A DNA stretch of 64,000 nucleotides from Patiria pectinifera (Eukaryota; Echinodermata; Asteroidea; Valvatida; Asterinidae), in contig CM057129.1 of assembly GCA_029964075.1 (NCBI GenBank), forward strand, positions 22,931,430 through 22,995,429. Direction: 5' to 3'. The translations under genes and the position numbers were made by a program. How positions within the stretch are numbered: position 1 is the stretch's first letter; every line of letters starts with the position of its first letter. Positions 3,241-30,563 of this stretch are shown in pieces. A model generated the notes under the pieces. It was not told the DNA's origin. It worked only from the letters and a program-made list of their open reading frames with translations, and did no database searches.

Positions 3241-3303
3241 TGCAAACATTAAACAACAAAATTATCACGGAATACCTTACTGGATTGTTAGGGAATGACA
3301 GTC

Positions 3304-6866: not shown

Positions 6867-7714
6867 TCACAGGTACATGAAGAGCTTGACTTCTTTCCTG
6901 TCCATCCTGAGGGCTAGGTTTTGCAGACGACACAGCCTCACCCCACTGTTGTTCCCGGCACTGAACACCCGGTACAGGTGGAAGGCCTGACCCATCTCCA
7001 GAGCGAAGGCCACCTGCCTGGGTGATATCTCCACAACCTGCTTCTGGTCCCTGATTGTTGACTTCACCTCCACGTAGATGTTCTGGGTGCCGTGGCTGAT
7101 GACGATGTCAAATGGCTCCCCTGTCTCATCCTGCTGATTGATCCACCTGACTGTAACCTCTGACGCTTCTGGTGACATACTCTGAGCCTGTTGGCACAGG
7201 TAGAGGTACACCAGCTGCTCTCCCCAGCGTGCGATATCCGTCGTGTCTGGGTTGTCTCCGAGAGGTAGGCTGAGACCTTCCAGGCTTTCCACAAGGGCTG
7301 GACCAGGAGCAAGATCTTCAAATTCCACCTCAATGGCCTCGCCCTCGGCATGAGGCGGTAAGAAGAATTTCTTGACGCTGCCGGTGGAGGGAGGAGGTAG
7401 GGCTGCTGAACGCTGGACTTGGGGCGGACTGTGAAACTCTTCGTTGACCCTCTCTGGTGCTGGAATGCCTTCCTCAGCATCATTTCCATTGCCATTATCA
7501 TCTTTCTCCTCTCCTGATTCCTCGGATGTAGTATCCCAGGAATCCTCCTCTGTTGAACCGAGCTCCTCCACGTTTTTAGCTAACTGTGTGGGATCACTTG
7601 AGGATTCATTAGGAGACAAGGCTTCCTGCTGTGCCTGGGCGGGTCTGGGCTGTACTGGACCTCCTGCAGATGGTTGGTGAAGGTGAGGGGGACCAATGCC
7701 TTCTCTGCTTCCAC
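6867..7714 (-). CDS. Copy A exon 26: C-terminal DUF3883 (NO VEIN C-terminal) domain, PD-(D/E)XK-like
   Basis: The final exon encodes about residues 2989-3270. An acidic, low-complexity first half leads to the DUF3883 domain from about residue 3145 (DTTDIARWGEQLVY). Visible candidate catalytic residues are E3154 in RWGEQ, D3191 in EPFDIVI, and E3204 and K3206 in YVEVKST, with a conserved Q in SPRQVAF. This spacing matches the restriction-endonuclease-like fold, so a nuclease or nucleic-acid-binding role is plausible but not shown. The stop is TGA at 6867-6869. The exon has the same length as in copy B. Of the last 70 residues only two differ between the copies, while the linker before the domain has many changes. 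Confidence 0.92.
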
Positions 7715-10700
7715 CTGAACAAAATAATAATCGCACTGTTAATTACAGGTGTTTAATATGCCATTTACTCATATTCTATATTAAAGTTTTAACAAACTGC
7801 ATTAATCTGATTATTGGAAGATTCTGAACATAAATGTAGAAGTGTAGGGATTACAAATGTGGAAAATACAAAGTGAACATATTTAGCCACAGAGAATTTT
7901 AATTGAGTCAATATAAAGTCAATCACGAGTCAAATTGAAAGTCAGGTCACATGAAAAAGGAATGAACAAAGACTCGTATGGCGAATGCTAACATCTCCAA
8001 AAACCCGCTAACATCTCCAAACTACCTACTTCTTATTTCAACTATAAAATCCAAGTATCAGAAATTGTTTTCACATCAGTAAAACACCGTCCTACCTTGT
8101 CCAACTACCTGTCCTGGATAGGGTACCTCCCCTCCTCCAATGGCTCCTGAGGTCCGCACCACAACAAGGTCATCTTGGCTTCTCTGGTATTGTGGCATCC
8201 CTGGAGTAATTGCAGTGCCTTCATATGACATGCCATCACCAGGTTGCGGAGGACCCGGTGTAAAGGGGGCAGCTTGATGAGCACTGATTAATGGCTGGGG
8301 TGGAGGCCACATCTTGAGTACAGCTTCTTCATTCTTGGGCTGGCCACCAGCTGGAACAATCAAGCAAACATTTTCATTAAAAAGTGGACTATACTATAAA
8401 ACGCAAGGCATGTGTATGTGTGTAGGTGTTCATGAGCTGATCACTCACAAGTTTATAGTTCACGAGTTGATCACCCTAAAAGTAGGCGATTGCCAGCAAA
8501 GTGGGTAACTTACAATGTACCTATGAAGCAGGCAACAGGCGGCGAAGCAGCCTCACCCACATAAAGGGCGAGGTGAAGCCTCGTCTATATAATCATAACT
8601 TTCAATTACAAGAAATAAAAAATAAAGGGAAAAAAAGGTAGTCTGAAGTCCCTTTTGCGTTGAAATTTTAATTAAACAGGACTGCATGTAATAATGGCTG
8701 AAACACATTAACATCACCACTATGTACAAACGTGTGTACCTCAAACAATGCCCAATAGTGTTAATGTGCAATCTTTTACCTGAAATCCCATCAATTAGCT
8801 TTTTCTTTGTTCTACAACCTTTTGCTAAACAGATTGAAATGACTCATTAGTGATGCCATTAATCCTCGGGTATTCGGCGCTTACCTTTTGTTGATTTTTG
8901 TGGGCCATATGTTCCTGACCGAGGTGGCCAGCTGTGGATAGCTGCATCGTCATCACCCTCAAGCAGTGAACCGGCTGATGGCTGTGGCATAGTGGGTTCA
9001 GTCAGTGGCTTGACTTTGGTCGGTTTGACAACTGAAGAATTGGAAAAAAATATTGAGATATTATTTGTTGAGTGATCAGGCGATGAGTAAAATTGTACTT
9101 AACTTTAACTTTGCAGAAGAACTTATCCTGCAAAAATAGTGCAGTTGTTGTGTTTTATATGCATAAAAATCCTCGTTCCCAGCTTTTAGACTACTTTTTC
9201 TTCAATGACAAACCTTTTTTTCACTTTAAACCTCAACACAAAACTCAGCCATGCTAAATTGACAACAAAAAACCCCAAAATCCACAAGATGCATCCAGGA
9301 TAGGACATAAGACTGCTGCTCCCAAAAAAGTAACATTCTAAGGTTTATTCAAGAGAAGACATCAACTAACCAACTTCCTCTGGGATGAATGGTTTGGGTA
9401 CCTCCCACGGTTCATCATCGTCCTCTCGAGGGAAGGTCAGCCCCAAGGCCCTGCAGATGCCCTCATTGATTCCTTTCTCTCTGGATTCTTCCCGCTTGGA
9501 CCCCATCTCCAGGAGCAGATTGCCGATGAAACTGAACAATGCTTCTTGGACCTCAGTGCTCTCGCAGCTGAAGAGTTTGGCCACCTCTCGCCTCACATTG
9601 CTGTTCTGTCGCAGATTCTTGGAGATGCCTGTCACTATATAGAACTCTGTCAGCTCCTGGAGTCCACACTCAACGCTCTGCTCTGCAAATACACTGGGGT
9701 CATGTGTGAAACGGTAGACCTTGTCAATCTTTTTGGCTGACATGAAGCGCATGACTTTCAACTTGGCAGCGATGTTAACCTCTGTTATGAGTTTCTCGTA
9801 GGTGGATTTGAACTCCTTCTTGACACTGCGCTGCATGCTCATGTAGAGCTGGATGTAGGGGCAGACATCATGGAGGAAAAGCTGAAGTTGGAGAGATGGC
9901 TTTGTGAGTTCGCTGATGAATTCTTCTTTGATGCAGTCCAACAGCATCTCGATACCACATGCCTTGAGGAAAACATCCACATATTGTTGGCCCACTGATC
10001 CAGACAAACCTTCAACAACTTGGCCAAGACGATTCCGATCTCCAAAATTCAACAGATGCACCCCCTTCTTGTCCAAGAAGAGCTTCTGGATGTCAGAAGA
10101 ACGGCTGCCACAGATCAGGGGCTTCTCCTCCGCCGTCACCCACTTGTTGCCCAAAGTGGGAAAGATAGCTTGCCCCTCAAGGATGCTTTTCAAGAACTGC
10201 ACAGAACTCAACTCAAAATCTGGTTCCTGTTGATCCAAATACTGGCTATGTCCAGTTGAGCTTGACGCAGAGCACTTTTGCCCAAGCATGCTGTAGAGCA
10301 CCAGGACTTCTCCCTTGATGCGAGTATTGTCTGGAAGTGAAATATCCCCAGCGCAATGAACCAGGACCTGGGCATATTCTTTGATGGTCGGCATACTGTC
10401 AACATTGATCTGTCTCCGAAAGAAGTCTTCCATGTTTTCGGGGTAAAGTGCATACAGCTGGGCACGGGTGGACAACTTGGCATACTTCTGTAAGAGACAT
10501 GATGGATCCTGCCAGTAAACCAGAGACTTGTGGACAAATTGGCCAGGAACAGGGAACTCGTACTTTTGCAGCATGGCCTCCTGAGGAACAAACACAACTC
10601 TGTGATCACTGAATAATTCTTTGAGCTCCTTGGGACGGCAGTTCTGCTCCAGGTAACTGTACACCCTGATGATGTGACCCAAGGAGGTGCAGAAGGGGGT

Positions 10701-13700: not shown

Positions 13701-16700
13701 ACTGCGTGTTCAATGCCATCAGGTGCCTGTGCGCGCAGTGTGCAAAATGTTCTAAACATGTGCGCATGTTGCTCAAATTTCTTTGAAATAGGGCGCTGCC
13801 CATTTTCGTCACGAAAATTTGTCGCCCAAAATGCCGATACGTCGTGACAATCTGTAGGAATTTATGTCATTTGAGAGAGGCCCATTGGTCAAAGAAGCAC
13901 GGAGTGCTTGCATACTACCCGAGTGCGAGCCTGGTTCTACCTACAAATGGCTATTTTTGGTCGCCGAATCAGTCTACTAGGAGGGACACAATGTATCTGC
14001 AAGCACTGGTTCCTTAGCATGTATTGCCTCAAATGCACACAATCAATTTTTATCCGAGCCAAGCGTGTCTCAATTTGAGCTCAGGCTCATTGGTCTCAGG
14101 TTCAGTGGATAATGCCATTGTCACAAGATGCAATCAAGGTAAAACATAATGTAGGCCTCCAAAGATATGTTTTGTCTGTGGTTTGAATTGCTCACAATTG
14201 CTCCATCAACTGAACTCAGAATTACCCAAGAAAATTTAGCATTAAAATAAAATTGGCATATAAACACGAATATAAAAAGAGTTAAAAAAAAATTCTTCAC
14301 AAAAATAACCGTGTTTTCATTCGGTACTTTAATTTCATCGGATCCATCATCTCAGCATCCACCTTATTGGTCAAAGAAGAAATCACCTGATGGCATCTGG
14401 CCTTGTGATTGGTCGGTCCTGTCTTCCTCACTGATAGGAAAGAACACACTGCCCTCCTCCATGGTGACAACCCGTCCCGATGACAGTGGAATCATGGGAA
14501 TGGATCGTAGCTGGTCCAGTGTTCCCTGGGATACGTCGTATTTGTCGCGGCTGCGATAGATACAGGTCAGCCATTGTGCCACGGTTTTAGGAGACAACAG
14601 TTCCTCTGTAACAGCAATACCCATAGTTGCACATATGTGACAGGAATCCACAAAAGTCATACAACTCCTTTTTTCATGTCATAGAAAGAACATACTCTTT
14701 CATACTCTTTGTTTTGGGGTATCACTCAGATTGACATCTTAGAAGGTCTGCACTAGTTAGTAGGAGGTCATGGGTTCGAGTCCCACCTGAGTAAGCTTGT
14801 CAATATTTTGTTTGAAAGCCCTCGGACAACACTGAGTATGCAGTGGTAAATACATTGGCGGGGTAAAACTTAACATGAAAAAAATGTACATCTCCCTGAT
14901 GCAATTCTGTCTCATAAAAACTATGGATACAAAGCTAATCTTGCAAATTCTCCAAATTCAGAGCGGGTGGGGGAGGGGGGAATCGGAGGGGTGGGGTTAA
15001 AGGCATTGAAATGCCCCCCCCCCCCCAGTTACGTTTGCCACTATATACCTGTCTGTTTAGCTGCCCGTGCCACACTGCTCAGGATGTTCATCAGCTCCCC
15101 CATCTGTAGCACCTTGACTCCCAGACTCTTGAGCAACACCTCGCTGACGGCGCTTGCCACATGCGGATGCAGGTAGGAGCAGCTCAGATGCTCTCGTAAG
15201 GTGTCCTGTGGAACCAACTCACAGACCAACTCCCGGACGCTACGGTCTGGACACATGAGGGTCTCTGATGGCAACTTCCAACAAACATCATCTGAAGGAA
15301 AAATAAAATGCATTCAACTTGTAATTTCAATTTTTTTTTCCTATCCAATAATGTGCAATTATAATTATAACGTACATTTGTAGAACTTCTTGGTCCTGGC
15401 TTCCTGCTGTAGATGAAGATGTGCATGGCCATTGGTAACCGGCCACGCAACCAACCTCTGTAGGCTAGTCCAACTACAGACTAATCAAGCAATCATTGAC
15501 TATAAGCATGCATTTGATGCACAGTTGGTTAAAAGGTAAAGTATACATCTTGAACAAACTTGCTCATGGTCGTTAAGTTAGACAGTAGTCTTTTTAGATT
15601 ACGCACATTGCTATTAATGCACGGGGTAAGCTAAGACATGAAAATAAACCACTAGTTGCCCAATAGTCCTTCATCAAACTTTTCCACTGTTAGTCAAAGT
15701 GCGCAGTCTAACGGCCATGCACATTAGTCTATAGATTAATTTGGCAAACAAAATTAGAAGCCATTCTTGCTGTGGAACCACTTCCCTGCGCATGCCGCAT
15801 GTGTTCATAAGGACAAGGCGCCTTCGCATTTTGGTAACCAATTTGGTCAAAGGAGCCCGGAGTGGTGCGTATTACCTGAGCGGGACTGGCACAAGCCTGC
15901 CTGGTGCCACCTGAGAAAATGGCTGTTGCCGAATTAGTCTATATACAGCAAACTTGCCTTCTCCTTGGCCAGTGAGTACCGGCATACAGGGTGTGGCCTT
16001 CAGTCTCTGGTGGATGTTGGTGGCCACCTTCCGGAAGAAGTCCGTCAGAATCTGACTCTCCATAGGAACGAACTTGAGGAATTGGCAGACGGCATGGACG
16101 GGATCGCCGTGGTAGTGTGCCTAAACAAGGGATGGGATATTTCACAACACTTCAATATTTAAGCAGTTCACAATAAAAAAAATCATTATTAGGCCCAAAA
16201 AAAAAGTCTCCGGTTTCTGGTATGCGCGCGCGTCGCCGTAGCCATGCGCGTCGGCAAAATGAAAAAGTTTTTTTTTCAATACAAGATGATGTTTCAAAAC
16301 CGCCAAACTCACTGGTTTGACTGGAATTCTGCTGCTGCACAATTTTAACGTGTTTTTAGAAGGGGTTACATGATCGAGAATAAGATTTATGTGGCCTCTC
16401 TGGACTCCCATATATTTGCACTCAGTTTAGTCGGGCACCATTTGCAGTCATCAGCCGACATTTGAAGCCCCCCCCCAAAAAAAAAAAAACAGGTAAAAAA
16501 AAAAAAAAGCCGCGTCGCCGCACCACTTTTGGGGCAAGCTCCATACCAGAAACCGGAGACTTTTTTTTTTTGGCCTTAATAAAAACTCATGATTAAAAAA
16601 AAAGGAGAAATCACAGTTTCAAACAATTCTAAGCTTTTATTTTCTTCTCCAAATTCTGTAGTTGGGGAGGTCAAACAAATCTGGTTTCCCAGTTTCATAG

Positions 16701-19700
16701 TCACACAGCTACAGCTCAGTATTTCTCTGATATTTGCATACTCTGGTCAAGAGGAATACAATCCCCGTTTCAACATTGTTATTGCTAGTGTACGAATGCA
16801 TTTAGCATTGAACTAGCATAGTTCAACTCTGGCTCAGCTCAGCTGGATTACTGCCATAGTTCATAATACGCTAACCTTTTATAAGCCACTTTTTTTTTTA
16901 TTGAACCAGGTCCCAATTTCATGGCTCTGCTTACCGTTAGCGAAAAATCCATGCTTACTGAAGCAGAAAATTCCCTCCTTACAGTGAGCGTATTTCATGG
17001 GTTAGCAAGGATATTTGGCTTATGCATACATTTCGTAACCAGTGCTTACTGGGTTAGCGCAGAAAAATTTACTGCTGGCGCTGTTAGCACAAAAATGGTG
17101 AGCATAAGTGTGAAATTCTGTGGTTAGCAGGGGCATGAAATTGGGCCCAAATTACTCCAGTCTTGGTCCAAATTTGGATATTGTTTCAATGATGCAGCGA
17201 TGCAGTCATGATCCCTGGCAAGTTAGCCTATTCAAGCTGCTGTGAGGTACAGGGCACTATCAACAAGATGAGTCAAACCCAGGGGTGGGGAAATTTGGCA
17301 CACAAACCTGGGCATATCTCCAGAATGCACTAGCTTGAACTTATAGTGCACACATATTTACATGAATATAGTAAGGTATATGCTCAGAATTTTGGGTCTG
17401 AGTGCCAAAGTGCCTAAGACCGCATTTTATTGATCTCAGTGATATTGTCCACTACTGCTGTGGAGACTTAATTGGCATTGCTTTTTTCAGGGACTGGCTG
17501 CACTTGAAGGCAAAAAAAAATAAGTTCTGGACAAAGCCTAGCTCACTCTCTCACAATTAGAACAGATTTAACAGATATCTGCTGACCTTGAAGTTTTGCA
17601 GGGCATCGATGAAGAGCGGCGCAATCTCCCGCAGGAGCCACTGGTTCCAGGCAGAGTCAGCATCCACGTCCTCCCGAGATGATGGGATGTCAAAGTCACC
17701 TGTGATACAAAATATTGAGCATGGACTTGAGATAAACAATATAACAGTTTTGGTTCATAAAATTGGCCAATCACAAACAAACATACCCCCCTCCCCCATA
17801 AAAAAAGAACAATTGGAAAGAAACATCCTTTTAAAGAAGCATCCTTATAAAGAAGGAATCTGTTGACATTTTGTTAAAAACAAGATAAGAGAGAATGAAG
17901 TATCCTGGAAAGGAATAAGGAGGGAGTACAACAGAGGAAGCTTGAGGAAAATACTTCATCACAGCACTCCTCGGAACACAAACTGTTTATGGATAAGATG
18001 AGGCAGTAAATCTTGTCTTGAAATTTTGAGAACATTCTCAAATTATCTACAGTCACAACAAAATCAAATTCTCCAACAGTTAAATCTCTAGTTACCTACA
18101 TATTAAAAAGGGCTACTTCACCCGACACTGAGCAGAATTTCATGAATTTATCTCACCTTGAATGATGAAGCAGAAACCATAGCTTCTCAGTGGCAAGAAA
18201 GCAAAGACGTTCTGCTCGCTGGACATGCCATCAGACAGAGGGAAGGCTAGACCCAACTCTGTCGACTCAATGCCCACTCGCTGTAACTATTTGACAAAAA
18301 ATAAAACAAAACATTTTAAAGGCATGTTTAATACATTTAACAAAAAAAACTTAGGTGAAACCATGGGTTATTTTTTTGTTGTCATTACAAATTTCCCTCC
18401 AGACTTTAAGGAGCCAGCCTCAATCTAAGACTACGCTCAACAAAAAAATCAACAGACTTGGCAATTAAACAATTGCCACATAAAATATTGTCTATTCTTT
18501 TCCTGATTGCCCAACCAAAGAAATGTACATGAAGCCGTAGGTAAGTATCAGTTTACATTATAAGACTTGTTCATTGACATAAAATGTGTTATCAGTTGAA
18601 CGAAGGAAAGTGACTGCAGCCTGGTTCAACTTTATCAGTCAAGCACTGGAAAAATGATTTGAAAGCTACAGGTTCGAATCCCACTGCAGTCGCAGGAGAA
18701 TAAATGTTGTGCAGTACCTTGGTAGCATCCAAGCATTTCTTGATGAGCAGCCAGCTGTCTGTGTGTTTGGAGTGGCGGATCTCCACAACGTTGCCTCCTT
18801 TATCTCTTCTGCTCATGTGGCTTGTTGTGTTCTCTTCCTGAAAATTTACATCATAGCGTAGGAAATGTCCACGTGCACATGAACCAGTGAGGCAAATTCT
18901 CTCCTTTGACTTGTAGTTGCAGCAATTTCCAGTTACAAATTTTTTGGTTTGGAGAGATGCCAAATAATCTCAAAACGACCCCAAACCCCCATTTGCCCTA
19001 CTTGGAAAATTGTTAACAATAATTAGATCATACTTGTTTCCCCCTGGCCATTTACCCCAAAGGATATCACAGACGGTTTTCCACTATCACCTGGGAATTG
19101 TTCTAAAATTATGTGTGAAACTAAAATGACAACTAAAGAGAAAAATGCTGCTTCATGCAATAAAATAAAAACCAGTTGAAACCAGGCACATTTAAAATCT
19201 TAGAATCTTGGAATTTGAAAATAAATCAACACAAATACTTAAATTGTAAAACCAATTGAAGAGTTTAGGTGTATTATGAGAGCAAATGTTCCACAAATGA
19301 ACACAACGTTTAGAACTATTCGGGAAGACACATTACCATAGGGTCCGAGGCTCCTCAGTGCAGTCAAAATACTGGCGGGTTCATGCCCATGTAGTTTGCT
19401 GAGAGTGCTGCTGGTACATTTCCCAAAGTGGGCAAGGGTGGGGGATTTTCTTTAACTTTCCCTAAACATCCAGGTACCCTTTCACACTTTCAGGTGCATA
19501 TTCAAAGCATGAGGAACACAGAGTAGTATGGTGCTCCACTACGTGTAATGTAAAATAGAACTGAGAGGGTTATCAATCATAAACCGAACCTTGTTAACGA
19601 TGACAATTGATCGTAGTCTGTTTAAGAACAGCAGTAGGGATGGCTGGACATCCTCAAACTTGTTGACCAGGCTGGTGGTTCGCTGGAAGTCTCCCTTCAA

Positions 19701-22700
19701 AGGCAGGGTGATCCGGGTGGTCCAGCTGTTCAATTAAATATTCATGAGATCATGCAGATATGATGAATATTCATGAAATTCGCAAAGTTTCTGGACTGCC
19801 ACAAAGCCTCCCGTCAATGGCAGGATAAGTAATCTTGGTGGTAAAAAAACAACCACGGGGATGTCTTAATAGATCAATCTATTGGCAAGAATTGCAATCT
19901 ACGGTATCATCTGTATGACAAATTATTTAGCTCTTACGGCTTGCGAGGTTCCTCCATCTGGGCAACATCCTGGATCTCTTCAGGCCCTACCCAGGTCGGC
20001 AAGATGTAACCCATCTGATCGGAACTCTGATCGAAGCACACATGATAGCCCTTGGATGTGATCTCAGGTTTGTCAGTCACTCTGAACACTGACTTGAATC
20101 CGATGCCCTTGTGACCTGAATGGTGAATTGAAAAGGACCAGAACGGTCAAAAGTTTTCAGCATGAACCAGGATGTCACAACTTTGCATTCGTATATTTAC
20201 ATAATATTTTATAATTTATATACACTGGATATTATTTCGTAATATCCAGTGGCATTTACCGATGTATCCTCTCTTGTGTTTTCCTTTGGTGCTCCTCCCA
20301 ACATCACAAAGGGCCCGGATGTTGCTCTCTGAGAACCCGACCTCGTTGTTCAAGACAGTCACCTCAGACCTGCAGGGGAGCAATGATACATATACACAGA
20401 GGTATCAATAATCACGATACAAGAATGCCACAATAAGGCGTCACTGTACCAAATCTCTGCTGTGATCATTGGTGTTGAATCTTGTCGGCAAAAGACAAGA
20501 CTATATTTACAAAATGTACCAACAAAAGGAAAGATTTCAGACATAAGTCTGAGAAAAACTCATTCCTGTGATACATTTCATGACAGTAATGGGGATTCAG
20601 TTCCTTGCCTTCGAACGGCCTCGGTTCGAATCCCGCCCAAGACGACAAGTGGATTGGGATTTTCAGTCCCAGCACAATTCCATGGGTTTTCCCCAGAGTA
20701 TTAGTCTAAGGTTTTCCTTGCACTTTTCTTCATTGCCTTCTCTCTACAGGTTTCTTCCGGCTTGTGAGTTACAGTGACATGGACATTTTTGAGGAATCCA
20801 TTGTTTAAATACCCGAAATCAATTAACAATTTTAATGACGTATATTGTATTGCAACCTCTGTATCTTGATATGTACCATATTTTGAAATAGTATTATCTT
20901 GCCATGGCTACAATGCACTGACCTGTCCACTAGGAATATTAAGGAAGGCTCGACCCCAGTCTCATACTCATTGTCGTCAGCGTTCTGGATCAGCTCCAGG
21001 ACAAAGTGGGTGTCCTTGCTGTACAGCTCCTCAGAGAGTCGTTTGAGGCTGCGGCCGATGCGTTCCCGCTGCCGGTCCATCAGTCCTTTGGTCTGCTCAT
21101 CCAGCTCCATGCCCACGCCGAACTCATCACGGCAGATGCTGTGGATCACTGCCCGACAGTCCAACACGGTGCGCTGGAATGGTGTCAGGTTGGGCTCTGG
21201 TTCCACCTCGTCCTCGGTCGTGATTGTTTCTTCGTTTAGGGGCTGAGCATCTGCATCCAAACACTCGTCATGGGAGGAGGTGTCCTCTCCTGCGCCCACT
21301 GCCTGAGAGTCATCAGCATCACCTTCTCCTTAGCGGAAAGAAAATAGTTATATTTGATGTTTATTTTTTCTTTAATATTTTCATCCAAATTCTCACTCCA
21401 AGGTGAAATTTCTTCTCCTGAGCCCCCTACTGGAAAATCATCGGCACTACCTTGTAATTCTAGCGGAAATGAAATCATCAACTTAAATTTTGTTTAGTTG
21501 TCTTTAATCTTTTTTACTACCTCAAGAAAAAAAAAACCCACTTTGTTTCAATCCTTTTCTGTTTTACACATTTCTTTTATTCAAATGAATGTTTTTCAAC
21601 TCTTCTGCAAAACACCCCAACACTAAAAGAAGAATAGAGGCTTATGACAAACGCTACAAGACAAATAAATGTCTATGCTATTTTCTAGAACGCCATGTTT
21701 TAAGGACAAGAGTTAACATTAAGTCAAACCAATAAATCATGAGTTAATCACGAGCCGGGCATCAAGTAACAGGGGATGAACTACAAGAAATGTCTTTGTC
21801 AATCTTCACTAAATAACTTGTACTTTCACTTGAGACTGGACGGCCTCTGACTGAGATCGACTTGGGATCAAGCTTACAAATCTAGACATAGCCTTTTTTT
21901 TCCAACAAACTATAAAATCTACTAAAAAAAAATCCACAAAATCAGAGAAACGTTTAAATGTCACAGATTCTCTTACTTTCACATATGTCCTCCTGAACTT
22001 CCACATTTTCCTCATCATCTTCATAGCTTGCTTCAATGAGGTTGCCAAATTCATCTTCAGATTGTTCTTTAATCTTCTCTTCTTCAAGGATGTCTTGGGC
22101 ATCTCCTCTCTGTTCATCTTTTTCCAGCGATGTCTGGGAAAGCTCTTCGGCATCTTGAAGAGATGGTGTGTCAATGGGACTGACCTCTGCGGTTGAAGAG
22201 CTTTCTGCCGCCTACGGACAATGTAAGAGATTTGTCAATGCCTCTAATCAAAGATTGTGAAATTGACAAATCATGAATCAATTCACAATTAAGATTGCAA
22301 GCCAAGTCACAACTGGGGGATGAACAACGACTATCACAATTAATATGAATGCTCATGACTTGACTTGACTTTTCTTCAAGAAGCTCTACAAAGATATCAA
22401 AAGCCCAGACTCACATATAGGATAAACTTGCTTAATTTTGGAATCATGTTGCATTTTCTTTCTTCAAAAAGCTATGATATTGCTCAATTCAGATGCAACA
22501 CTGAGGAACTGTTTTATTTACTACCAGAAAGAATTCAGATAAATCGATAAAATTGTCACCTCGGTAGTTTTTGGAGCTTTGTGAATCCCAAGCAAGTTAC
22601 TGAAGTCAAACTCTTCATCATTTCCAAAGAAGTCCTCTTCAAAGTCTTCCTCCTTATCCATGTTCCGGGGCATCCTTTCCTCTGTGAAGCTGTTTTTCCA

Positions 22701-25700
22701 TTGGCTGATGCCCAGCAGGAGCCCCAGCCTCTGGATTTTTGTCCTCTGGGTGGTAGTGCAGCAGGCCTTGAGAATCAACTGTCTTGATTTGACCTCTGAC
22801 CCAATGACGGTTGTCAGGGGATTTAAGATGACCTGCAGTGACAAAAACAGTAGGGTCAATCTTTAAATTTAAAAATACTCAAAAATATTTTCATTAAGTT
22901 TTTGCCGTTTCTCAAGGAAATTGTGGTCAAGTGGTAAACATCTGCATTGGTAACAAGATGGTAGGTTAAAGACCCATTCCAGTTCAACCCTGTGAATGTT
23001 TTTCCAAGGGGTTGGTAAGTGACAAAATCTAATGTTAAAATGTACATCTCTCAAAGCAAAACTTCTAAAAAATTTCACAATCTGGGACATAACGTCCCTA
23101 CAGACCTGCCTAACAACTGCCTGTCCAATGAGGAGAGGCACAGCCAGTAGGCAGTCCAGCACAAAACCAATCACAGCGCTGTGTTTCATCTCCGCACCCT
23201 CAGACTCAACGGCCAGAACATTCAGAGCCGTCTCCATGTGGTTGCTAAGCAACGCCAGGGGGGTGTTGCCAGGGCCCTCCTTGGCCACCAAAGAGACAAG
23301 ATGACCGCTGGCTGTGACACTGTCACCTCGCTTTGCGGCTGCGGCAAACAGGTCAGGTGACGTCTCTGCAGCCAATCGGAGCAGGACTCCTGGTCGGACC
23401 TCCAAGGCATTGATTTCTATTGGTGGCGACACACTTTGACCTGAAAGTCAACATCAAAAGTTTTGGATTTCTTATTTCAAATTACATCCTTTTTGGTTAT
23501 AGCTAAATTTTTATTAAAATCTGCGAAGAACTTGTACCACAAGCAAAGTCACATAAGTGGCTTTAAAAATTACTTTACACAGTGAAATTCTGCCAAAGAT
23601 TCTCATGCTTTCCTGTAAAAAATTACAACCAGCACTGATAAATTACAAACGGGAGAGATGCTATAGTACCAAATTCTCAGATTCAACCTAAACAGGCCTT
23701 CCTAAATTCTGTTCCAGAAAGAGATAGCTCGCTGGTCGAGTGATAAGACACCTGCACTAGAAAGCAGGAGGTCCTGGGTTGAGTCCCACTCGAGTGATTG
23801 TTTCCAACTTTCACTCGGGAGGTAACACACTGAGTATACAGTGTTTAAACATCGGTGGGCAAAACCTAATTTAAAAAAAAATTCCATCTTATAATAGAAA
23901 GAGATATGTAATCACACAAATGCCATACCAGGATTTCTTTCCAGAAATGCTTTCAGGTTTCCATGTTCCGGCTCAAAGACCATCGACCAATGAGACCACT
24001 CGGCTAGATCCTCCAGCAAAGGGGCAGAGGCCAGACATGCGAGGGCGCTCTCCAGGCTCTGAGAGCCAAACAAGCCGACGTCCTTGCGTTTACTCTCATT
24101 CCGCCTTTAAAAGAATGTGTGCGAAAGAAAATAAGCTACATAGAACACTGCTGAATCCAAGAGTGGGAGGGGCAGGGAGGTGAAGCCCCCTGTGCTAATT
24201 TCTCTTCGTTGGCAATGCTTCTCATAACAGGCATGCAACTGGGAAGTAACTAAACAAAATAAAGAGGGAACAAAATAAAGAGGGAATTCCAAACTTTACA
24301 AGACTTTAAACAAAGTTTTTTAAATTTTAATGGCATACGTGTGCATTGAAAAAAGTTTAAATCAGCTGATACAAGGGAAAATTGCATGCCTGATACAAGC
24401 TTTCTTTCCTACCATGTCTGCGAAACTTGCTGGAACTTGTCAATAGTTGTGAATAAGAATGCTCAAGTTGACATTGTAATATATTCAAATATTGTGTGTG
24501 TAAAAATGTTGACTATTCTCATTACCTTTCGCTATACATAATTTCCAAAAACTTCTTTTATGCAACTCTGGTGAAATAGGACTCCTTAATTTGGGTCGGG
24601 TCATAGACAACTAAAATCACACCTATTTGATGCACACAATGCCGTCTCGTAGATGACGGCATTTTGCTCCTCTTGCTGGCCTAATTTACTGGCCATCTTG
24701 ATGATTTGTTGACTCAGCCGATTGACAGGTCCATGTCCTAGCTCCTCCACGCTGCTGACCTGGTAGTGGGCACACAGGCACATATCCAGGGTGTCTTGAG
24801 ATTCCTAAAAAAAAAAGGGTAAAGTTAAGGAATCCAAGGAAAGCTTAATTTGTTTCTACAAGAAGGTATGGACAGTGTGCATGAAAAGTAGATGGCTGCA
24901 TTAGAGCTCTAGTGGGAAGGACGCACCAGAGTTCTTGTGTGCATGGTGTGAAGTATACACACAACTAATTTTCTTCCATGAGCGTCAGGCACCATCGCGT
25001 TAGCAATAGGGTTCAGAGGAGTTGCGGCACCTACATTGAGACCCAGTAATGGAACTGACGAGGCAGTAGCTACAGCTGGTGAGCTCCTAATAAACCTGAC
25101 GCGTCCCACCTGGAAAGCGCACTTGTATAAAACAAAGCGTTACGTCATTAAGTCTTAGGTCAATTTTAATAGATCTAAGACTTAATGACGACACGCTTTG
25201 TTTACTTGGAAAGACACTTGGAAAAGCATCCAAGCATCTCTCCAAGTGGTCCCTCCCAACTTTCTCTTCATAACGGTCAAGGGAATGCTTGTGCATGGAA
25301 CCAAGAGTTACTTCTCATAAGTTGCATGAATCAAGTGATATAGCATCTGATTTTAGCTGATTTTAAGCATTAATACATTCAATGCAATTCTGGAGCATTT
25401 TCGTGATGAGAGAATAGGAAAGAGTTTTTTTTAGAAGAATAAACTAATTGTAGCTAGGTTCATATCCAAGTGAATTATGTTCTTCTTGTTCCTTACCCAA
25501 ACTGTAATTTTTTCTGGAGTACCAGAAGTCTTTAAGACTTCCAAGAAATAAGAGAACTTTACCTTTTCATTATTGAGTCATGGCTCTGGAGGTTTTTTTT
25601 TACGGATCGAAAACTATTTTATCTTGTTGGGTAGTGCATTGCGAGTGTGGAAGATAAACAAGTATAATTTAAATAGCCAATACCACGTGACTCACTCTCA

Positions 25701-28700
25701 GCCAATCAGGAGACAGAATCTGTCCCCAAGGTGTTAGATCACATGCTCTAACTAGAAAAAGTTTGGAAAGGGGATCTTTTTCACCAAGTTATAAATATTT
25801 CTTTCAGGTGTTGCTTATAACACATACTTTGCAAGGGTCGCACTGTCGGATGAATTCCACCAGATCCATGCGTGAGGGTCTGTAGATGGACCCCTGGCTG
25901 GGGTTGCTGGATACCAGCCCCATCAGGGTACCGCCAACACTCTCCAAAACCTGAGCAAATGTTAAAACATATATTTTTAAAGGATCGTTAGAGAAGCATA
26001 TTTATCAATGTATGTGGGTATATTAACCCAAGTTGCTATGACATAAAAAAAAAAATTGCATTACATTTTGGTAGTTAGATAGGACTTTGTTATGTCACAA
26101 CCATGCCATGGCTTAAATACATTTAAAACAGATTTCTTGCCATGTAACTATGACTTTCCTCCTCCTTTGTAGCAGTAATAGGGAGAAATTTTAATGTTTT
26201 AGTTTTTATGCTAATGAAAATTTCCATATTCATGGGCCAACACATGATGTCATTCAAGGCAGAACAGTAGTGTCTCCATAGCTTTGTGTACACATTAATT
26301 TCTCGGCAAAATTATCTGCCTGCCTGCCAAATCTTGTGTCCATGGGCAAACGTGTCCATATTGTCCTTTGGTGCCCGCAATCGCCCGCTTTGAACAGTGC
26401 CCCTGTTGGAAGATGTTGTCGGCGCAGAGTGACCGGGAACAAAATGGTTAATTTTAGGTGGTCTAGTGATGCTCTTGCCCATTGGTGCCATTTGCCATCT
26501 TGGGTATGCATAACACCATAGCCCATGCACAACAGAACAGGAAAATCGTATCATGCCAAATACTGAACGTAAAGGGTCTAAAAGCACAAGGACAAATAAA
26601 ACTGAAAAACGCTGATTAACCAGGAAAACAACAATTTGTTTGATATTGTTACCTCTGGATGATCCAGTGAAAGGAACTGTAGGAAGGTTTTCCTGGCTCG
26701 GCTGAGCGAAACAAAGTCCTGAAAGTCAAAATGCTTGCAAAGTTTGTCCTCGATGCGGGCAAGGTCTCTGAGATTGACATTTCCATGCTGAATACGTTCC
26801 AGGTAACGCTGCAGCTCTTCGCGGACTTGATCTAGGAGGCAAAAAAGAAAAAAAGAAACAAAGAGGTTTGTAGCAATTTTTGACACATAGCCGACTTCTC
26901 AAAGAATACTTTGGAAAGCTTCAACTAATTTCATTTATTTGTCCAACTTTGTACATATTTGGTTTTGCACACTGTGCACTGTGTACAAGCGCACTTTGGA
27001 ATACACAAAGCAGATATGGAAAAAATCTGGCACAGCTTTCATAACAATTTGTACACATTCCAAACCAACCACATTTCTCTCATTCAGTTGGTACCATCTG
27101 TTACTTTGGCTGCATACAATTTGAGTGTTTAGCCTATTTACCACTGGCAATGTAATAAAAGATTTTGTAAAAATGAGGAAAATAGAGCCCAGCTACTTTT
27201 AGTATCCCATCACAGTTGGGCTACAACATCACAGTGAATGATTTTGTAAGATCCAAGAATTAGGCTCCTATAAAAATATGCCTCTAGGGAATAATTTGCT
27301 TTAAATTCTTTATTGTAATCTTTCACGGGGGTGTTTAAAAAACTTGGCCTCATCTCTGGCTAGAGTTATTGTCTCTGACTTGAGATTCATCAATTCAGTA
27401 TCAGATCCTTTGTACCTGGTCAGATTTTTTGTTGTTATCTTGCTTCTCCTTTGGAAACAGAAGTCTTCAAAATGATGCTGAAGACAGATATGAAGTTGGA
27501 GCCAGAGACAAAGCCACTGTTTTAAGAAACCCATACCTTCAGTTGGTTTTGATTTGACTGGGCTTCTCTCCTCCTCATCAGGACCTCTTTCCTCCTCATC
27601 TTCGTCTTCAGAATCCAGAATCCCCTCTGGAAGGTCACTGGGTCGACTAAGGTCACCACTACAAATAGCCAACTGGAACAGCGACCGGCTCAGCCTGTCC
27701 ATAACCATGCTTTTCAGCGCCAAGCAGAACTGCTTCAGGTGTCTGCTGTAGACAGTCAACTCGTAGGCATTGTCAAACACCATGTTCACCGCCTCTGCCG
27801 CTGTCACGTTGCAGTAGCGGCGCCGCACCTCCAGCATAGGGCCCGGGGGGAACTGGTGCCCGGTAATGTCTGCAGGTGATATCACAGCTTTGCGGATTTT
27901 CTCCATGGCTTCAGTCACCTCTTCAGTCATGGAAGTCTTTATGTTTTCACGAGCCCGGTCCATGGTTGTTTTCTGTTCACGCTTGGCAGTCTTGAGTGCC
28001 TGAAAAAAATTAATAAAAAGTAGCATTTATTATTTCATAAATTTAGAAGTGTAAGGGAATGTAAAATTGTACCTCTTTAATTTAGTACAAAGACCTTCTT
28101 TTTCTTTTCGAGCTAGAAATCATCTTTAAGAAATCATTGTTACAAGGTTTGTGCGTGTGAGTAAATGTGTAATGGAATTGTAAATTAACTTCAGAATAGA
28201 AATAAAAGGATACTTACTGCAATGCCAAGACCGACACTCTGGATTCGCAAGCCCAAGTCATATGGCCCTTCCAGATCATACTCTTCTACAACGTATTCCA
28301 TAAAGTCCTCCAACTTGACACGATCCCTCCACAGATCTTTGGCAGTCAGAAATCTGTTCAGGACTTCCAAAACATCAACGGTAGTGATCTTGGGGATATC
28401 GCTGTCATCTTTGGTTGGTGGAAACTTAAAGAATTGATAGACCAGGGGCTGCTTGGATAAGGGACCTAGGTGAAGGGCAGCATAGTCAAGCTTCTCTGTC
28501 GAACCAGTTGGGGCATCCACCATAGCTAGAGATTCCCTGAGCTCGTGGAGGGTACCGATGGCCCGGACTTTGACAAATGCCTGGATGAAGGCATTGACTT
28601 TGGACTGGAGCCTCATCAACTGCTTCAGGGCTGGTAGTTGGTTCTCATTTCGTAGCCCCAGATTTTGCAAGCTGGTGGCCTGAAAATGCTGCTTGAGAAG

Positions 28701-30563
28701 CTCCACCACGCGTTCCACCGTCACCAGCTCATTGGCTGCAGCAAGGTTGTCAATAAGGGTCTGGGCCACTTCATCTAAGGTGCTCTGTTTTGGAGCTTGT
28801 TGCTTTGAGCTGCTGCTTCGTGATGAAGAAAGAGATGGGTACTGATCCAGTGGTAGGTATTCCTGTCTAGGTTTCTTTCGTTGCTGCTGCTGCTGCTGCT
28901 GCTGTTGTTGAGTTGATGCAGACCATTCCTGTTGTTTGTCTCTTGAGCTAAGGACTGCAGCATCCCTGCATTGATTTGTGTCCAGTTGTTTGACACTTGT
29001 TTTCATCTTGTGGGGCTGCCCCTGCAGCTGTTCCTTTAAATACGGCTGTGGCAACTGTGGCTGGGTTTGTTGCTGCGCATGTTCCTGCTTGATTGCAACA
29101 CTTTGCTTAGGTTTTTGGTCTCGTGGCTGTAACAGTGTCAATTCAGTTGCATCTAAGCTTCCAAACGTAATCTCTGAAGGATAACCACTACCTTTGTTTT
29201 TCTTACTTCTCTTTCCACTATCTTCCACAGGCTGTACTTTTGGCACACTTCTTATCTGCTCTTGTTGTACAAGACCAACTGCAGTTTTCTTCAGGGGCAG
29301 TTTTTGTGGTTGCTGTTGCTGAACCTGCCTTTGTTGATGTACCACAGGCCCAAGGAGACCTAGCTGTCCAGGTTGTGTATGTGGATTCTCAGTTGCAGCA
29401 CCAACATCAAGACCCATTAATGGAACTGGTGAGGCAGCAGCTACAGCTGGCGAGGCGCCTAATAAACCTGATCCACTGATGTCAAAACTTCCAAATGCAA
29501 CTCCTCCAAACCCTACTGGGGGTGGACCATAATAAACCTCTGGGGCAGCTCCCAACAGACCCAAAGAAGTCGACCCCAAACCTGTATTGTTGAACACCAT
29601 GGGAGGGAGTTGCTGACCTGAGGTGACAGCATCTCTTGCTCTCCCATCACCACCTGACTTGCTATGACCTGGTTTCAGCTGAAGAAAACGACACCTGGGT
29701 TTGTTGCACTTATTGAAGAATTCAAAACCATCCTTGCAGGTATCTATTATCAGCTGCCTCTTGGGTGCATTTTTGTGGTACTTTTGTGAGTATTTTGTGT
29801 TAATTGTTGTTAGCTTCAAACCTGCAGGGTAATTTTTAAGCAACTCTTTCAGTTCCTCTTGCAAGTTGTTAGACCGGGTCCGTTTACCATCGACTCTGTT
29901 TTGTTGAGCAGCTGCGTCTTCTGGCTTAATGCGGATATGTGGATGCTTGATGTGATCGCACTGACTGACAACCTCAAGAATGTCCCTGAATGTATCAGCA
30001 ATCGAGTCAACTGTGGTGATACCATATTCAGCAAGGTTCAGGGCTCTCTTGTACTTCTGCTCATAGGTTTCTGGCAGGGAGTGCAGTTCAATATGCCCTC
30101 CAGGTGAACTCTGAAGCAATTCCACCAAATCCTTCCTTAAGTCCACCAAGGTATCCCTCCCCACTGCCGAAGATTGATCTGTTTGATATCTCTTGGAGCT
30201 GGGCTCTGACCCTGCTGACAGATTTCCGATGTCTTTGGCTGAAGCAGTGTTGCTTTTAACTGGGTTGACTTTTCCTGCTCCACCCTTCTTCTGCGCTTTT
30301 GTGGCCACTGGCAACTTTTTCAACATCAGATATTTGGTTTTTCCAACAGTGATAATTTCTACCACATCCGCGAACAAAGCCACCAGTTGTTTAACCGAGG
30401 ATATGCCAAATTTCTTGATGGCGAGTTCCTTCTTGAATTGCTTGCTGTAGAGTGCCTGAAGATTCCCAAGGTCTATGTGAGGTTGGTTTGCTTTTAAGAG
30501 CTCCACAAGTTCTTCTCTTAATGTTGCAACCTGTTCCTCACTCATATTAGATGCAGAAGCCAT
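6867..30563 (-). CDS. LOTUS / GHKL-ATPase / NO VEIN C-terminal (DUF3883) giant protein, copy A, complete (26 coding exons)
   Basis: Spliced minus-strand gene. Exons, 5' to 3': 30563-28218, 27999-27537, 26831-26653, 25950-25828, 24804-24623, 24104-23929, 23440-23106, 22832-22560, 22211-21977, 21328-20923, 20369-20260, 20115-19938, 19725-19590, 18837-18718, 18286-18157, 17699-17587, 16120-15958, 15291-15049, 14605-14387, 13497-13307, 12464-12263, 11568-11405, 11246-9371, 9031-8885, 8350-8096, 7714-6867. I read each acceptor (AG) and donor (GT, except one GC) in the sequence. All phases match and the sum is exactly 3,270 codons plus TGA. Copy B shares the boundaries of exons 5-26, which validates them. 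The start ATG at 30563 has a good context (CAAGATGG), but no in-frame stop lies between it and the exon's acceptor, so a further upstream start is possible. The family resembles animal 'protein NO VEIN-like' proteins, with added N-terminal LOTUS modules. Cellular role unknown; no signal peptide or membrane segment was noticed. Confidence 0.9.
8096..9031 (-). CDS. Copy A exons 24-25: proline-rich linker
   Basis: Exons 24 (9031-8885) and 25 (8350-8096) encode about residues 2855-2988, rich in P, Q, G and S and probably disordered. Both are flanked by phase-1 introns, so either could be skipped or repeated without a frame change. Exon 25 is seven codons shorter than in copy B. Intron 25 (381 nt) holds nothing recognised. 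Confidence 0.82.
8380..8600. repeat. Interspersed repeat in intron 24 of copy A (and B)
   Basis: The stretch from ACTATAAAACGCAAGGCATG through GAAGCAGGCAACAGGCGGCG to AGGGCGAGGTGAAGCCTC recurs at 40610-40770 in copy B's intron 24 and, rearranged, at 49185-49375 in B intron 18. Presence at the same place in both genes dates it before the duplication. The family was not recognised. Confidence 0.5.
9371..11246 (-). CDS. Copy A exon 23: large 625-codon middle exon
   Basis: The largest internal exon (1,876 nt) starts after a TTTTCAG acceptor with DVTPWADLGRFWE and ends in phase 1 at GTTG|GTTAGT. It encodes about residues 2230-2854. The predicted protein is mixed helix and strand with no motif I can name; its layout fits the long segment between the ATPase and the C-terminal domain of NO VEIN-like proteins. 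Copy B's exon is seven codons longer because of an in-frame insertion near 43110. The last 250 nt differ from copy B at only about five positions, far fewer than other parts of the exon. Confidence 0.9.
11405..16120 (-). CDS. Copy A exons 17-22: helical middle region
   Basis: Six exons (16120-15958, 15291-15049, 14605-14387, 13497-13307, 12464-12263, 11568-11405) encode about residues 1836-2229. I recognise no named domain beyond similarity of layout to NO VEIN-like proteins. Exon 17 ends at a non-canonical GC donor (AAG|GCAAGT), which is the only donor here that keeps the frame. Exon 19 must end at the donor TCAG|GTGATT (14387), because reading on gives a stop 25 nt later, and the next exon continues in phase 1. 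Exons 17 and 20 are almost identical to copy B, while the introns between them are not. Confidence 0.85.
11740..12240. repeat. Degenerate CTTGTGATTTGA repeat tract, intron 21 of copy A
   Basis: About 400 bp built of diverged 10-14 bp units such as GACTTGTGATTTGA. The same tract sits in intron 21 of copy B (about 44630-44968 and 45295-45375), where it is split by a SINE. A pure GAAA microsatellite lies beside it at about 11574-11600. Confidence 0.6.
12813..12860. repeat. Perfect 22-bp-arm palindrome, intron 20 of copy A
   Basis: The arms GGAGGATTCAGGACTGTTAGG(G) and their exact complement are separated by the four-base loop CTAT. At the corresponding place in copy B's intron 20 a different and much larger fold-back element is inserted. 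Confidence 0.7.
13571..13978. repeat. Repeat R4 in intron 19 of copy A, with an internal insertion
   Basis: The outer parts match 15740-15948 in intron 17: AAAATTAGA.GCC...GCATGTGTTC, AAGGCATTTTGGTAACC, GGTCAAAG.AGC.CGGAGTG. Between them, about 13640-13885 is an extra segment with weak inverted ends (GACCCCTCTCA and TGAGAGAGGCCC), probably a small DNA transposon. Confidence 0.5.
14750..14885 (+). mobile_element. Old copy of tRNA-derived SINE1, intron 18 of copy A
   Basis: Contains box-B-like GGGTTCGAGTCCCACCTGAG followed by the SINE1 tail words AACACTGAGTATGCAGTG and GTAAAACTTAAC. The front is truncated. It is more diverged than the other SINE1 copies. Confidence 0.6.
15740..15948. repeat. 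Repeat R4, uninterrupted copy in intron 17 of copy A
   Basis: Second member of the repeat pair described at 13571-13978. It lies just inside the GC-AG intron, close to the exon 17 donor. Function and class unknown. Confidence 0.5.
16192..16575. mobile_element. Harbinger-like MITE, family H1, intron 16 of copy A
   Basis: Inverted ends GGCCCAAAAAAAAAGTCTCC/GGTTTCTGGTATG and their complement lie within a 3-bp TTA target duplication (16189-16191 and 16576-16578). The 384 bp interior contains the family words GGGCACCATTTGCAGTCATC and CCGCGTCGCCGCACCAC. There is no coding sequence. Confidence 0.78.
16909..17147. mobile_element. Small inverted-repeat transposon, intron 16 of copy A
   Basis: Inverted ends GGTCCCAATTTCATG and CATGAAATTGGGCC bound 239 bp with repeated TGCTTAC and GTTAGC words. 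Copy B reads through the site (TTGAACTTGATTACTCC), giving an empty-site comparison. Superfamily not assigned. Confidence 0.68.
17587..19725 (-). CDS. Copy A exons 13-16: rest of the ATPase module
   Basis: Exons 13 (19725-19590), 14 (18837-18718), 15 (18286-18157) and 16 (17699-17587) encode about residues 1669-1835. The pattern follows the sacsin/NO VEIN ATPase domain after the G2 motif: an LPLKG...LLLFLNRLRSIVI strand-helix, then a segment ending in GFCFIIQGDFDIPSSREDVD, which matches the usual 'nucleotide pocket closing' part of these proteins. Exon 15 has two acceptors six bases apart (18286 or 18280), both keeping frame. Introns 13 and 15 hold nothing recognised. Intron 14 contains a short fragment with a tRNA box-B-like motif near 18670. 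Confidence 0.85.
19938..21328 (-). CDS. Copy A exons 10-12: sacsin/NO VEIN-type GHKL (HATPase) ATP-binding core
   Basis: Exon 10 carries the N-box ELIQNADD at about residues 1549-1556, following a helix rich in R and E (DRQRERIGRSLKRLSEELYS). Exon 11 carries the G1 motif NNEVGF (about 1580-1585) and exon 12 the G2 motif GHKGIGFKSVF (about 1610-1620). The asparagine and glutamate needed to hold Mg-ATP in the Bergerat fold are therefore present. This arrangement is typical of sacsin and plant NO VEIN rather than Hsp90 or MutL. Exon 10 has two possible adjacent acceptors (after CTAAG or CTAAGGAG), both in frame; the first is also available in copy B. Introns 11 and 12 are short here (144 and 212 nt) but expanded in copy B. 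Confidence 0.9.
20223..20251. repeat. Perfect hairpin just inside intron 11 of copy A
   Basis: CACTGGATATTA, a five-base loop and TAATATCCAGTG form a perfect 12-bp stem that begins nine bases past exon 11's donor on the transcribed strand. Copy B has no equivalent. Confidence 0.6.
20590..20800 (+). mobile_element. tRNA-derived SINE2, intron 10 of copy A
   Basis: CTCGGTTCGAATCCCGCCC is followed by TTTTCAGTCCCAGCAC, TTCCATGGGTTTTCCCCAGA, CTCTCTACAGGTTTCTTCCG and GAGTTACAGTGACATGG. It sits in the same intron as the SINE2 in copy B, so it may predate the duplication, but I cannot prove the same insertion site. Confidence 0.7.
21376..21470 (-). pseudogene. Relic duplicate of the start of exon 10, copy A intron 9
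   Basis: Reading the minus strand, the intronic motif TTTCCGCTAG followed by GGTAGTGCCGATGATTTTCC and GGAGAAGAAATTTCACC aligns with the acceptor and first codons of exon 10 (21328), and aligns best with copy B's exon 10. It could be read with an acceptor at CGCTAG, but there is no donor, and the open frame runs into exon 10 out of phase. It is therefore a dead partial exon duplication. A matching relic exists in copy B, so it is older than the gene duplication. Confidence 0.6.
21977..24804 (-). CDS. Copy A exons 5-9: region before the ATPase
   Basis: Exons 5 (24804-24623), 6 (24104-23929), 7 (23440-23106), 8 (22832-22560) and 9 (22211-21977) encode residues 1038 to about 1437. Exon 7 looks like a helical-repeat segment; its alanine-rich stretch and LLSNHMETALNVLA resemble ankyrin-type helices, but I cannot assign it firmly. 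Exons 8 and 9 end in acidic D/E-rich stretches that lead into the ATPase. Exon 8 is three codons longer than in copy B, in the acidic tail where the two proteins differ most. Introns 5, 7 and 8 hold nothing recognised. Intron 6 carries a SINE. Confidence 0.85.
23727..23895 (+). mobile_element. tRNA-derived SINE1, intron 6 of copy A
   Basis: The box-A-type head CTCGCTGGTCGAGTG and the box B GGGTTGAGTCCC are followed by the family tail AACACACTGAGTATACAGTG and GGGCAAAACCTAATTT. An 11-bp target duplication, AGAAAGAGATA, lies at 23716-23726 and 23896-23906. The equivalent intron of copy B lacks it. Confidence 0.82.
25016..25095 (-). pseudogene. Fragment of LOTUS-gene exon 1 inside copy A intron 4
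   Basis: About 80 bp match exon 1 at 29390-29472 at roughly 80% identity in the same orientation. On the minus strand the fragment encodes SSPAVATASSVPLLGLNVG, compared with ASPAVAAASPVPLMGLDVG (about residues 370-388) in exon 1. It has no splice sites of its own. It may be a scrap of another paralogue or a local duplication. The equivalent B intron is only partly in view and shows no such match. Confidence 0.65.
25131..25203. repeat. Near-perfect inverted repeat, intron 4 of copy A
   Basis: ACAAAGCGTTACGTCATTAAG... and its complement form arms of about 27 bp with two or three mismatches around an AT-rich centre. It lies immediately beside the exon 1 fragment. Confidence 0.6.
25828..27999 (-). 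CDS. Copy A exons 2-4: helical region with acidic stretch
   Basis: Exon 2 (27999-27537) follows a poly-pyrimidine acceptor. It encodes a charged helix, then a highly acidic run (residues about 904-925, many D/E) before a phase-1 donor. Exon 3 (26831-26653) and exon 4 (25950-25828, 41 residues starting VLESVGG) follow in phase. I recognise no domain by name. The acidic run could be a flexible linker. Introns 2 (705 nt) and 3 (702 nt) are AT-rich and hold nothing I recognise. Copy B's counterparts are off the right edge, so these three boundaries rest on splice signals and frame alone. Confidence 0.8.
28218..30563 (-). CDS. Copy A exon 1: three LOTUS/OST-HTH modules plus Q/S/G-rich linker
   Basis: This exon encodes residues 1-782 and ends in phase 0 at a consensus donor (GCA|GTAAGT). 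Three winged-helix LOTUS-like repeats are visible at about residues 8-85, 136-213 and 232-297. Each starts with a helix of the LREELVELLK type, followed by a Y..K(F/Y)K..L segment and a hydrophobic helix such as FADVVEII. LOTUS/OST-HTH domains are known from Oskar, TDRD5, TDRD7 and MARF1, where they bind RNA or the helicase Vasa. Residues 300-600 are low in complexity: repeated GLLG motifs, a KKNKG basic patch, and a ten-glutamine run at about 552-561 encoded by a CAG repeat. The rest (600-782) looks helical. The start chosen is the first ATG after the acceptor-proximal stretch with a good Kozak context. The equivalent exon of copy B lies outside the window. Confidence 0.87.
28875..28904. repeat. 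CAG/CTG microsatellite coding for polyglutamine
   Basis: An in-frame triplet repeat inside copy A exon 1, reading as about ten glutamines on the minus strand. Probably length-variable. Confidence 0.85.

Follow-up and report, generated by a model that had tools for sequence, protein, structure and literature searches.

A tandemly repeated sea star gene predicted to join LOTUS modules to a TmtA-like ATPase body and a NOV_C tail

The closest described counterparts of the protein considered here are TmtA, which we take to be the protein of the anti-phage system Tiamat, and plant NO VEIN, to our knowledge the only eukaryotic relative that has been studied; we know of no LOTUS modules in NO VEIN. 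In the portions of two papers available to us, the mechanism of Tiamat is described as unknown or poorly understood (PMC10482375, PMC12926258), and an excerpt of a third (PMC7260716) presents NO VEIN as a plant-specific nuclear factor for the vasculature of leaves. As for the LOTUS, or OST-HTH, modules, the available part of the main text of a 2010 survey of OST-HTH architectures is without ATPase, HSP90, sacsin, GHKL or DUF3883 (PMC2848206), and PMC3710099, for which one occurrence each of OST-HTH and DUF3883 was counted, has in its main text DUF3883 alone, in another context. Among the papers listed in searches of the open-licence PubMed Central literature, none joins LOTUS with NO VEIN, DUF3883 or Tiamat. 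As far as searched, the reading of a LOTUS-bearing animal Tiamat is undescribed, and the pairings of its domains may be visible in domain databases. The sequence described below ties together three literatures, those on Tiamat, on plant NO VEIN and on the LOTUS modules of germ granules.

The window, by which we mean the whole analysed stretch of 64,000 nucleotides of Patiria pectinifera DNA, contains a predicted gene, here gene A or copy A. The sequence comparisons show a single gene model with kept splice sites, predicted to encode a sacsin-type ATPase within a colinear TmtA body and a NOV_C tail with the complete PD-(D/E)XK residue set, present in three tandem copies. Its features and those of the neighbouring copy are as follows.

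6867..30563, minus strand: gene A, from exon chaining and splice conservation, 27 or 28 exons, 3246 or 3284 residues
28218..30563, minus strand: exon 1, 782 residues, with LOTUS modules, a Q-rich linker and conserved residues ~621-782
30309..30542, minus strand: LOTUS module 1, residues ~8-85, by Pfam OST-HTH and module profile
29922..30161, minus strand: LOTUS module 2, residues ~135-214, by Pfam OST-HTH (two stretches) and module profile
29670..29879, minus strand: LOTUS-like module 3, residues ~229-298; modules related to it in copy B are over the Pfam limit
22560..27999, minus strand: exons 2-9, residues 783-1397, an animal-only extension without known family, coding by conservation
23752..23865, minus strand: doubtful exon 7, 38 residues, inside a dispersed repeat
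20923..21328, minus strand: exon 11, with the N box ELIQNADD, residues 1587-1594
20260..20369, minus strand: exon 12, with NNEVGF, residues 1618-1623
19938..20115, minus strand: exon 13, with GHKGIGFKSVF, residues 1648-1658
14408..21079, minus strand: match to TmtA profile positions 19-528, residues ~1559-2100, the ATPase and the following part (PADLOC, E 2.5e-89)
15406-15376, minus strand: exon 19, from the exon-chaining model
9534..9980, minus strand: match to TmtA profile positions 945-1078, residues ~2716-2864 (PADLOC, E 1.1e-7)
6900..7241, minus strand: NOV_C/DUF3883 tail, residues ~3161-3274, matching TmtA profile positions 1183-1289 (E 2.2e-19)
6867-6869, minus strand: stop codon of gene A
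39195..64000, minus strand: C-terminal part of copy B, which runs to ~70116 overall
~67124-70116, minus strand: LOTUS exon of copy B, past the window end

An earlier sequence-only reading of this DNA had proposed a gene on the same strand and at the same coordinates, which proved correct, and had given its domain order as LOTUS, GHKL ATPase, DUF3883, which profile searches of the protein confirm; the three ATPase motifs listed above are present as it had quoted them. The gene model was built with an exon-chaining script and conservation against the sister copies, its splice sites being scored on copy A alone and its coding score drawing on the sister copies as well, and exon 1 and one long 3′ exon were left whole because their frames stay open. 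Residue numbers follow the 28-exon model, which is stop-free over its 3284 residues; after residue 1156, 38 is to be subtracted for the 27-exon model, in which exon 7 is omitted and the frame is still open over 3246 residues. Exon 7 is probably false, because it sits in a repeat and matches copy B outside the order of the other exons, and exon 19 has no counterpart in copy B and an acceptor that is not kept in copy C. Counting comparable sites only, the splice sites of gene A without exon 7 are kept at 48 of 48 positions in copy B and 47 of 48 in copy C, and with exon 7 included at 49 of 50 in either. As a control, GT or AG dinucleotides inside the introns of A are kept in 254 of 403 cases in B versus 916 of 1098 in C, so that copy B constitutes the strong test of splice conservation. 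No family over its cut-off was found by Pfam in residues ~600-1370, scanned in pieces; the best match in the middle region, to TFCD_C at 0.0023, is below the cut-off and was taken as chance. A tRNA-like match (Rfam, 39.1 bits) at window positions 57873-57945 lies inside a repeat that is also present at 23725-23872, the site of exon 7, and that is perhaps a tRNA-derived short repeat; ARAGORN reported no tRNA in 23500-24200.

The homology to TmtA concerns the body of the protein. The TmtA profile (PADLOC PDLC03972 and its sister profiles, length 1302; protein residue numbers were converted from the scan) matches in three stretches, in the ATPase half, in the middle and in the tail, which follow one another in the same order in gene A, and the body of ~1750 residues is, judging from these matches, a colinear homologue of TmtA. 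Because this whole body is homologous to TmtA, which the sequence-only reading had missed, the idea of a defence function stands on firmer ground than names of domains could give it. When prokaryotic contigs were searched with the ATPase alignment, 445 relatives were found, and the best 80 of the 445, with identity up to 44% over the ATPase, were retained; prokaryotic contigs searched with the tail alignment gave no match. In blastp of the animal protein against the frames of these best 80 of 445, 78 matched at 1e-3, the two unmatched frames (L073 and L088) having derived lengths of only 6 and 9 residues. A second, colinear match to the tail is present in 14 of the matched frames, counted by eye; residues 1534-2610, for example, match residues 5-991 of L029 (E 6e-117), followed by residues 3163-3256 against 1348-1457. 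Most prokaryotic relatives start near animal residue 1530-1570, while seven (L059, L079, L087, L093, L095, L098 and L100) have 146 to 535 extra residues at the front; the LOTUS stretch found no match in plasmid records. All four relatives scanned with PADLOC (L029, L030, L034 and L062) are TmtA, with best E-values of 2.4e-225 to 0.

Defence genes lie beside several of these relatives, as far as nine chosen neighbouring frames at five loci (L029, L030, L037, L039 and L062) can represent them: type III R-M and JetC3 at L037, GajB and BrxL at L039, and RTasRmuC at L029, with none at L030 (one neighbour scanned) or L062 (two neighbours scanned). Qat genes are annotated next to the TmtA-like gene of L015. 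At this locus, positions 6255-9961 of a Sulfuricurvum plasmid, a NERD-domain gene immediately precedes the ATPase-DUF3883 gene, after which come qatA, qatB, qatC and qatD, and the NERD gene with the ATPase-DUF3883 gene possibly forms a two-gene defence unit. Two haloarchaeal ATPase-DUF3883 genes (L012 6489-9418 and L013 6273-10207) each stand directly behind a small hypothetical gene, possibly a partner. Viral contigs gave no match with the animal ATPase or tail alignment, and one phage record had a partial ATPase match.

The ATPase itself is by sequence of the sacsin type, matching Pfam SACS, whose cut-off is 32.8, with 54.4 bits (E 2.1e-14) and the NCBIfam sacsin-type ATP-binding domain NF047352 with 71.9 against 50 (E 4.5e-20). 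Contrary to the sequence-only reading, the ATPase is not MORC-like: it matches SACS and stands in the tree with prokaryotic TmtA-like proteins, and Pfam gives SACS and HATPase_c_3 and no MORC domain in the ATPase stretch scanned. The tree comprises 89 rows, namely 77 prokaryotic, 9 of the 10 fetched sacsin rows and the 3 animal copies, and places the animal copies within a 49-row group (support 100/98), with all 9 sacsin rows outside it, the root being arbitrary, the sacsin branch long, this animal the sole eukaryote and the placement inside the group unsupported. By this grouping the predicted ATPase belongs with the prokaryotic TmtA-like proteins, apart from the animal's own sacsins; with its arbitrary root, long sacsin branch and lack of any other eukaryote, the tree backs neither gene transfer nor vertical descent. 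The residues of the N box and of GxxGxG are identical in 77 of the 77 prokaryotic rows, partly by selection, because the patterns used to find these rows contain parts of the two motifs. The position of the GHKL DxGxG aspartate, as read from the alignment, is N in 60 of the 77 rows and H in 16, and ATP hydrolysis is only putative because N or H stands there in most rows.

At the C-terminus, the tail matches NOV_C (Pfam PF13020) with 62.8 bits over a curated cut-off of 22.1 (E 3.2e-17). In an alignment of 16 tails, two from the window and 14 prokaryotic ones chosen because blastp had found their tail, E3168, W3193, N3195, D3205 and K3220 are identical in all 16, while at position 3218 13 of them have E and three have D. 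PD-(D/E)XK enzymes tolerate an exchange of E and D, and the E...D...ExK pattern that had been noticed earlier is indeed there, with E, D, E/D and K in order in 16 of 16 sequences. A profile built from the tail of A and the 14 prokaryotic tails finds the tail in 24 of the 80 relatives (best 80 of 445), the 14 included; of the relatives without a match, some have frames cut at contig ends and others have no recognisable tail. Weak hits of the tail to models of SfsA (from 3 of 16 members), of Hjc and of NERD (from 1 of 16 each), and to CARF_PDDEXK, point towards a nuclease of this kind; other weak hits in their lists do not, those listed with SfsA, Hjc and NERD being of no restriction-like fold. 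With hhalign, the tail against the CARF_PDDEXK set reached a probability of 7.8% over 18 columns (control 0.3%), and most of the cyanobacterial CARF_PDDEXK proteins compared are without the lysine. No credible match of the tail to solved structures in the PDB was found, and matches of the tail profile to SNX27 (0.0025, 0.0034) were taken as chance because only 35-37 columns match. DUF3883 is called a novel REase domain in the available part of PMC3710099. The tail is a probable nucleic-acid-cutting domain.

The three LOTUS-like modules that had been proposed at the N-terminus of gene A hold, two by Pfam and the third by way of copy B. In Pfam, OST-HTH matches copy A with E 6.5e-18 and 64.8 bits over a curated cut-off of 23.8, with two stretches over the limit, and module 3 of A alone falls below that limit; copy B has five OST-HTH stretches (1.4e-28). 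A small profile built from the three modules of A, whose matches to these same modules hold by construction, likewise finds five modules in copy B. Elsewhere in the genome, four OST-HTH matches are clustered at C18:16397196-16435509, perhaps in a MARF1-like gene.

The tandem duplication suspected earlier is real and fuller than supposed, for there are three copies, and the number of LOTUS modules differs among them, with three in A, five in B and none in C. The genome (613.5 Mb, 1020 contigs) contains three NOV_C matches, all of them in this array on contig C1. Copy B matches A in order from the first to the last exon except for exons 7 and 19, and in its exon 1 a frame of 989 amino acids is open; the residues matching the first 19 of A lie in another frame. 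Copy C, to the left of the window, matches A from residue ~535 on except for residues 2969-3008, and keeps the ATPase motifs and the residues of the nuclease pattern. In the copy C region searched, nothing matches residues 1-361 of A; the counterpart of residues 362-507 contains stops and is separated by a retroelement from the part that starts at residue 535. Copy C has, on this evidence, lost its LOTUS modules, and a retroelement is now in their place. The element, ~1586-6467 bases left of the window start and inside the former exon 1, has gag-like, protease, reverse transcriptase and integrase-like open frames, so labelled by reading.

Selection has acted unequally on the parts of the protein. 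Between A and B, dN/dS (with 95% bootstrap ranges) is 0.08 (0.03-0.18) for the ATPase, 0.27 (0.12-0.59) for the NOV_C tail and 0.71 (0.48-1.11) for the LOTUS modules together, the modules taken singly giving 0.35 (0.17-0.80), 0.58 (0.30-1.21) and, for module 3, 1.99 (0.97-5.78), an interval that begins just below 1; with the duplicated modules of B the pairing of modules is partly arbitrary, and the uncertain start of copy B is a further caveat on these values. For the tail, the comparison of A with C yields 0.76 (0.24-3.46), which is compatible with no constraint. The ratios thus demonstrate that the predicted ATPase is strongly and the LOTUS part weakly constrained, and the fast change of the latter may be, at least in part, relaxed constraint.

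The explanation that we favour, at about even chances, is that gene A encodes an animal homologue of TmtA and of plant NO VEIN to which LOTUS modules have been added, and that the protein would most likely act in defence against viruses or transposons or in germ-line RNA surveillance. We infer a mechanism in which the ATPase would serve as a nucleotide-driven switch or clamp that restrains the C-terminal nuclease and frees it on meeting foreign or misplaced nucleic acid. The LOTUS modules would be the address: by binding RNA or the helicase Vasa they would direct the protein to RNP granules, or to RNA from viruses or transposons. Observations that speak against this explanation include the lack of LOTUS modules in copy C and of an in-frame ATG before the first module of copy B, the A-C ratio of the tail and the possible relaxed constraint on the LOTUS part, the prokaryotic relatives with no recognisable tail, and the lack of a credible match of the tail to solved structures. 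In its most specific form, in which Tiamat would persist in animals as an RNA-addressed defence nuclease, with LOTUS modules, gained in eukaryotes and varying in number and sequence between copies, guiding a nuclease gated by the ATPase to the RNA of viruses or transposons in germ granules, the proposal is tentative and, taken whole, rather unlikely.

A TmtA body in a eukaryote does not have to serve defence, because plant NO VEIN is a developmental factor, as stated in an excerpt of PMC7260716 and in the title of Tsugeki 2009. The strongest alternative, somewhat unlikely in our judgement, is accordingly that of a developmental or chromatin factor like NO VEIN, a nuclear ATPase clamp or chaperone whose tail would bind nucleic acid without cutting it and whose LOTUS modules would localise it in germ cells, and it agrees with the ATPase being the most constrained part. 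However, the residues of the nuclease pattern are kept in A, B and C, and mere binding would not need them, while tandem copies with a varying number of LOTUS modules resemble a conflict gene more.

A division into two genes, the first coding for a LOTUS protein with exon 1 as its last exon and the second, downstream of it, resembling NO VEIN, appears improbable. An unspliced last exon is conceivable, as exon 1 has an open frame of 790 amino acids from the ATG that stops 24 bases past the donor, but the 218-base intron between the LOTUS-bearing exon 1 and exon 2 keeps both its GT and its AG in each of the three copies. Moreover, residues 621-782 of exon 1, which share the open frame of the LOTUS modules in A and B, are constrained in both comparisons, with dN/dS of 0.22 for A versus B and 0.20 in the other. 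The conservation of splice sites in the sister copies thus bears out the single gene of the sequence-only reading. Slightly less probable still is a sacsin-like chaperone with a role in protein folding, a member of a sacsin family that looks strongly expanded in this genome (45 SACS matches elsewhere, on contigs C8, C9, C18, C19, C21, C375 and C678), since, for all that its SACS domain is over the cut-off, the animal copies fall in a well-supported group without a sacsin row, and all three NOV_C matches are on C1 whereas the SACS matches are listed on other contigs.

If the favoured reading of an animal TmtA homologue with a defensive role is right, the protein would be a further case of immune machinery common to bacteria and animals, and its LOTUS part would suggest what is sensed by machinery of this kind; a protein without defensive role would show a defence body turned to other use.

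Among the known systems, the MORC ATPases share with the protein the GHKL class only. Sacsin shares the type of ATPase, with a weak match to a solved lizard sacsin domain (E 0.051), but is set apart by the ATPase tree and by NOV_C matches being confined to the array of gene A. The LOTUS/OST-HTH proteins Oskar, TDRD5, TDRD7 and MARF1 resemble it in their OST-HTH modules, which are over the cut-off, whereas the available part of PMC2848206 names for OST-HTH proteins no partner such as the ATPase-DUF3883 body of gene A. Plant NO VEIN, the founder of PF13020, was compared by this domain alone and resembles the animal protein in a NOV_C tail over the Pfam cut-off; it is called plant-specific and developmental in the excerpt of PMC7260716, unlike the defence reading of the animal protein. 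The most extensive likeness is to TmtA of Tiamat, with which the protein shares the order of a front sacsin-type ATPase, a long middle and a DUF3883/NOV_C tail over ~1750 residues, and to which the animal gene adds ~1500 front residues with LOTUS modules, and introns.
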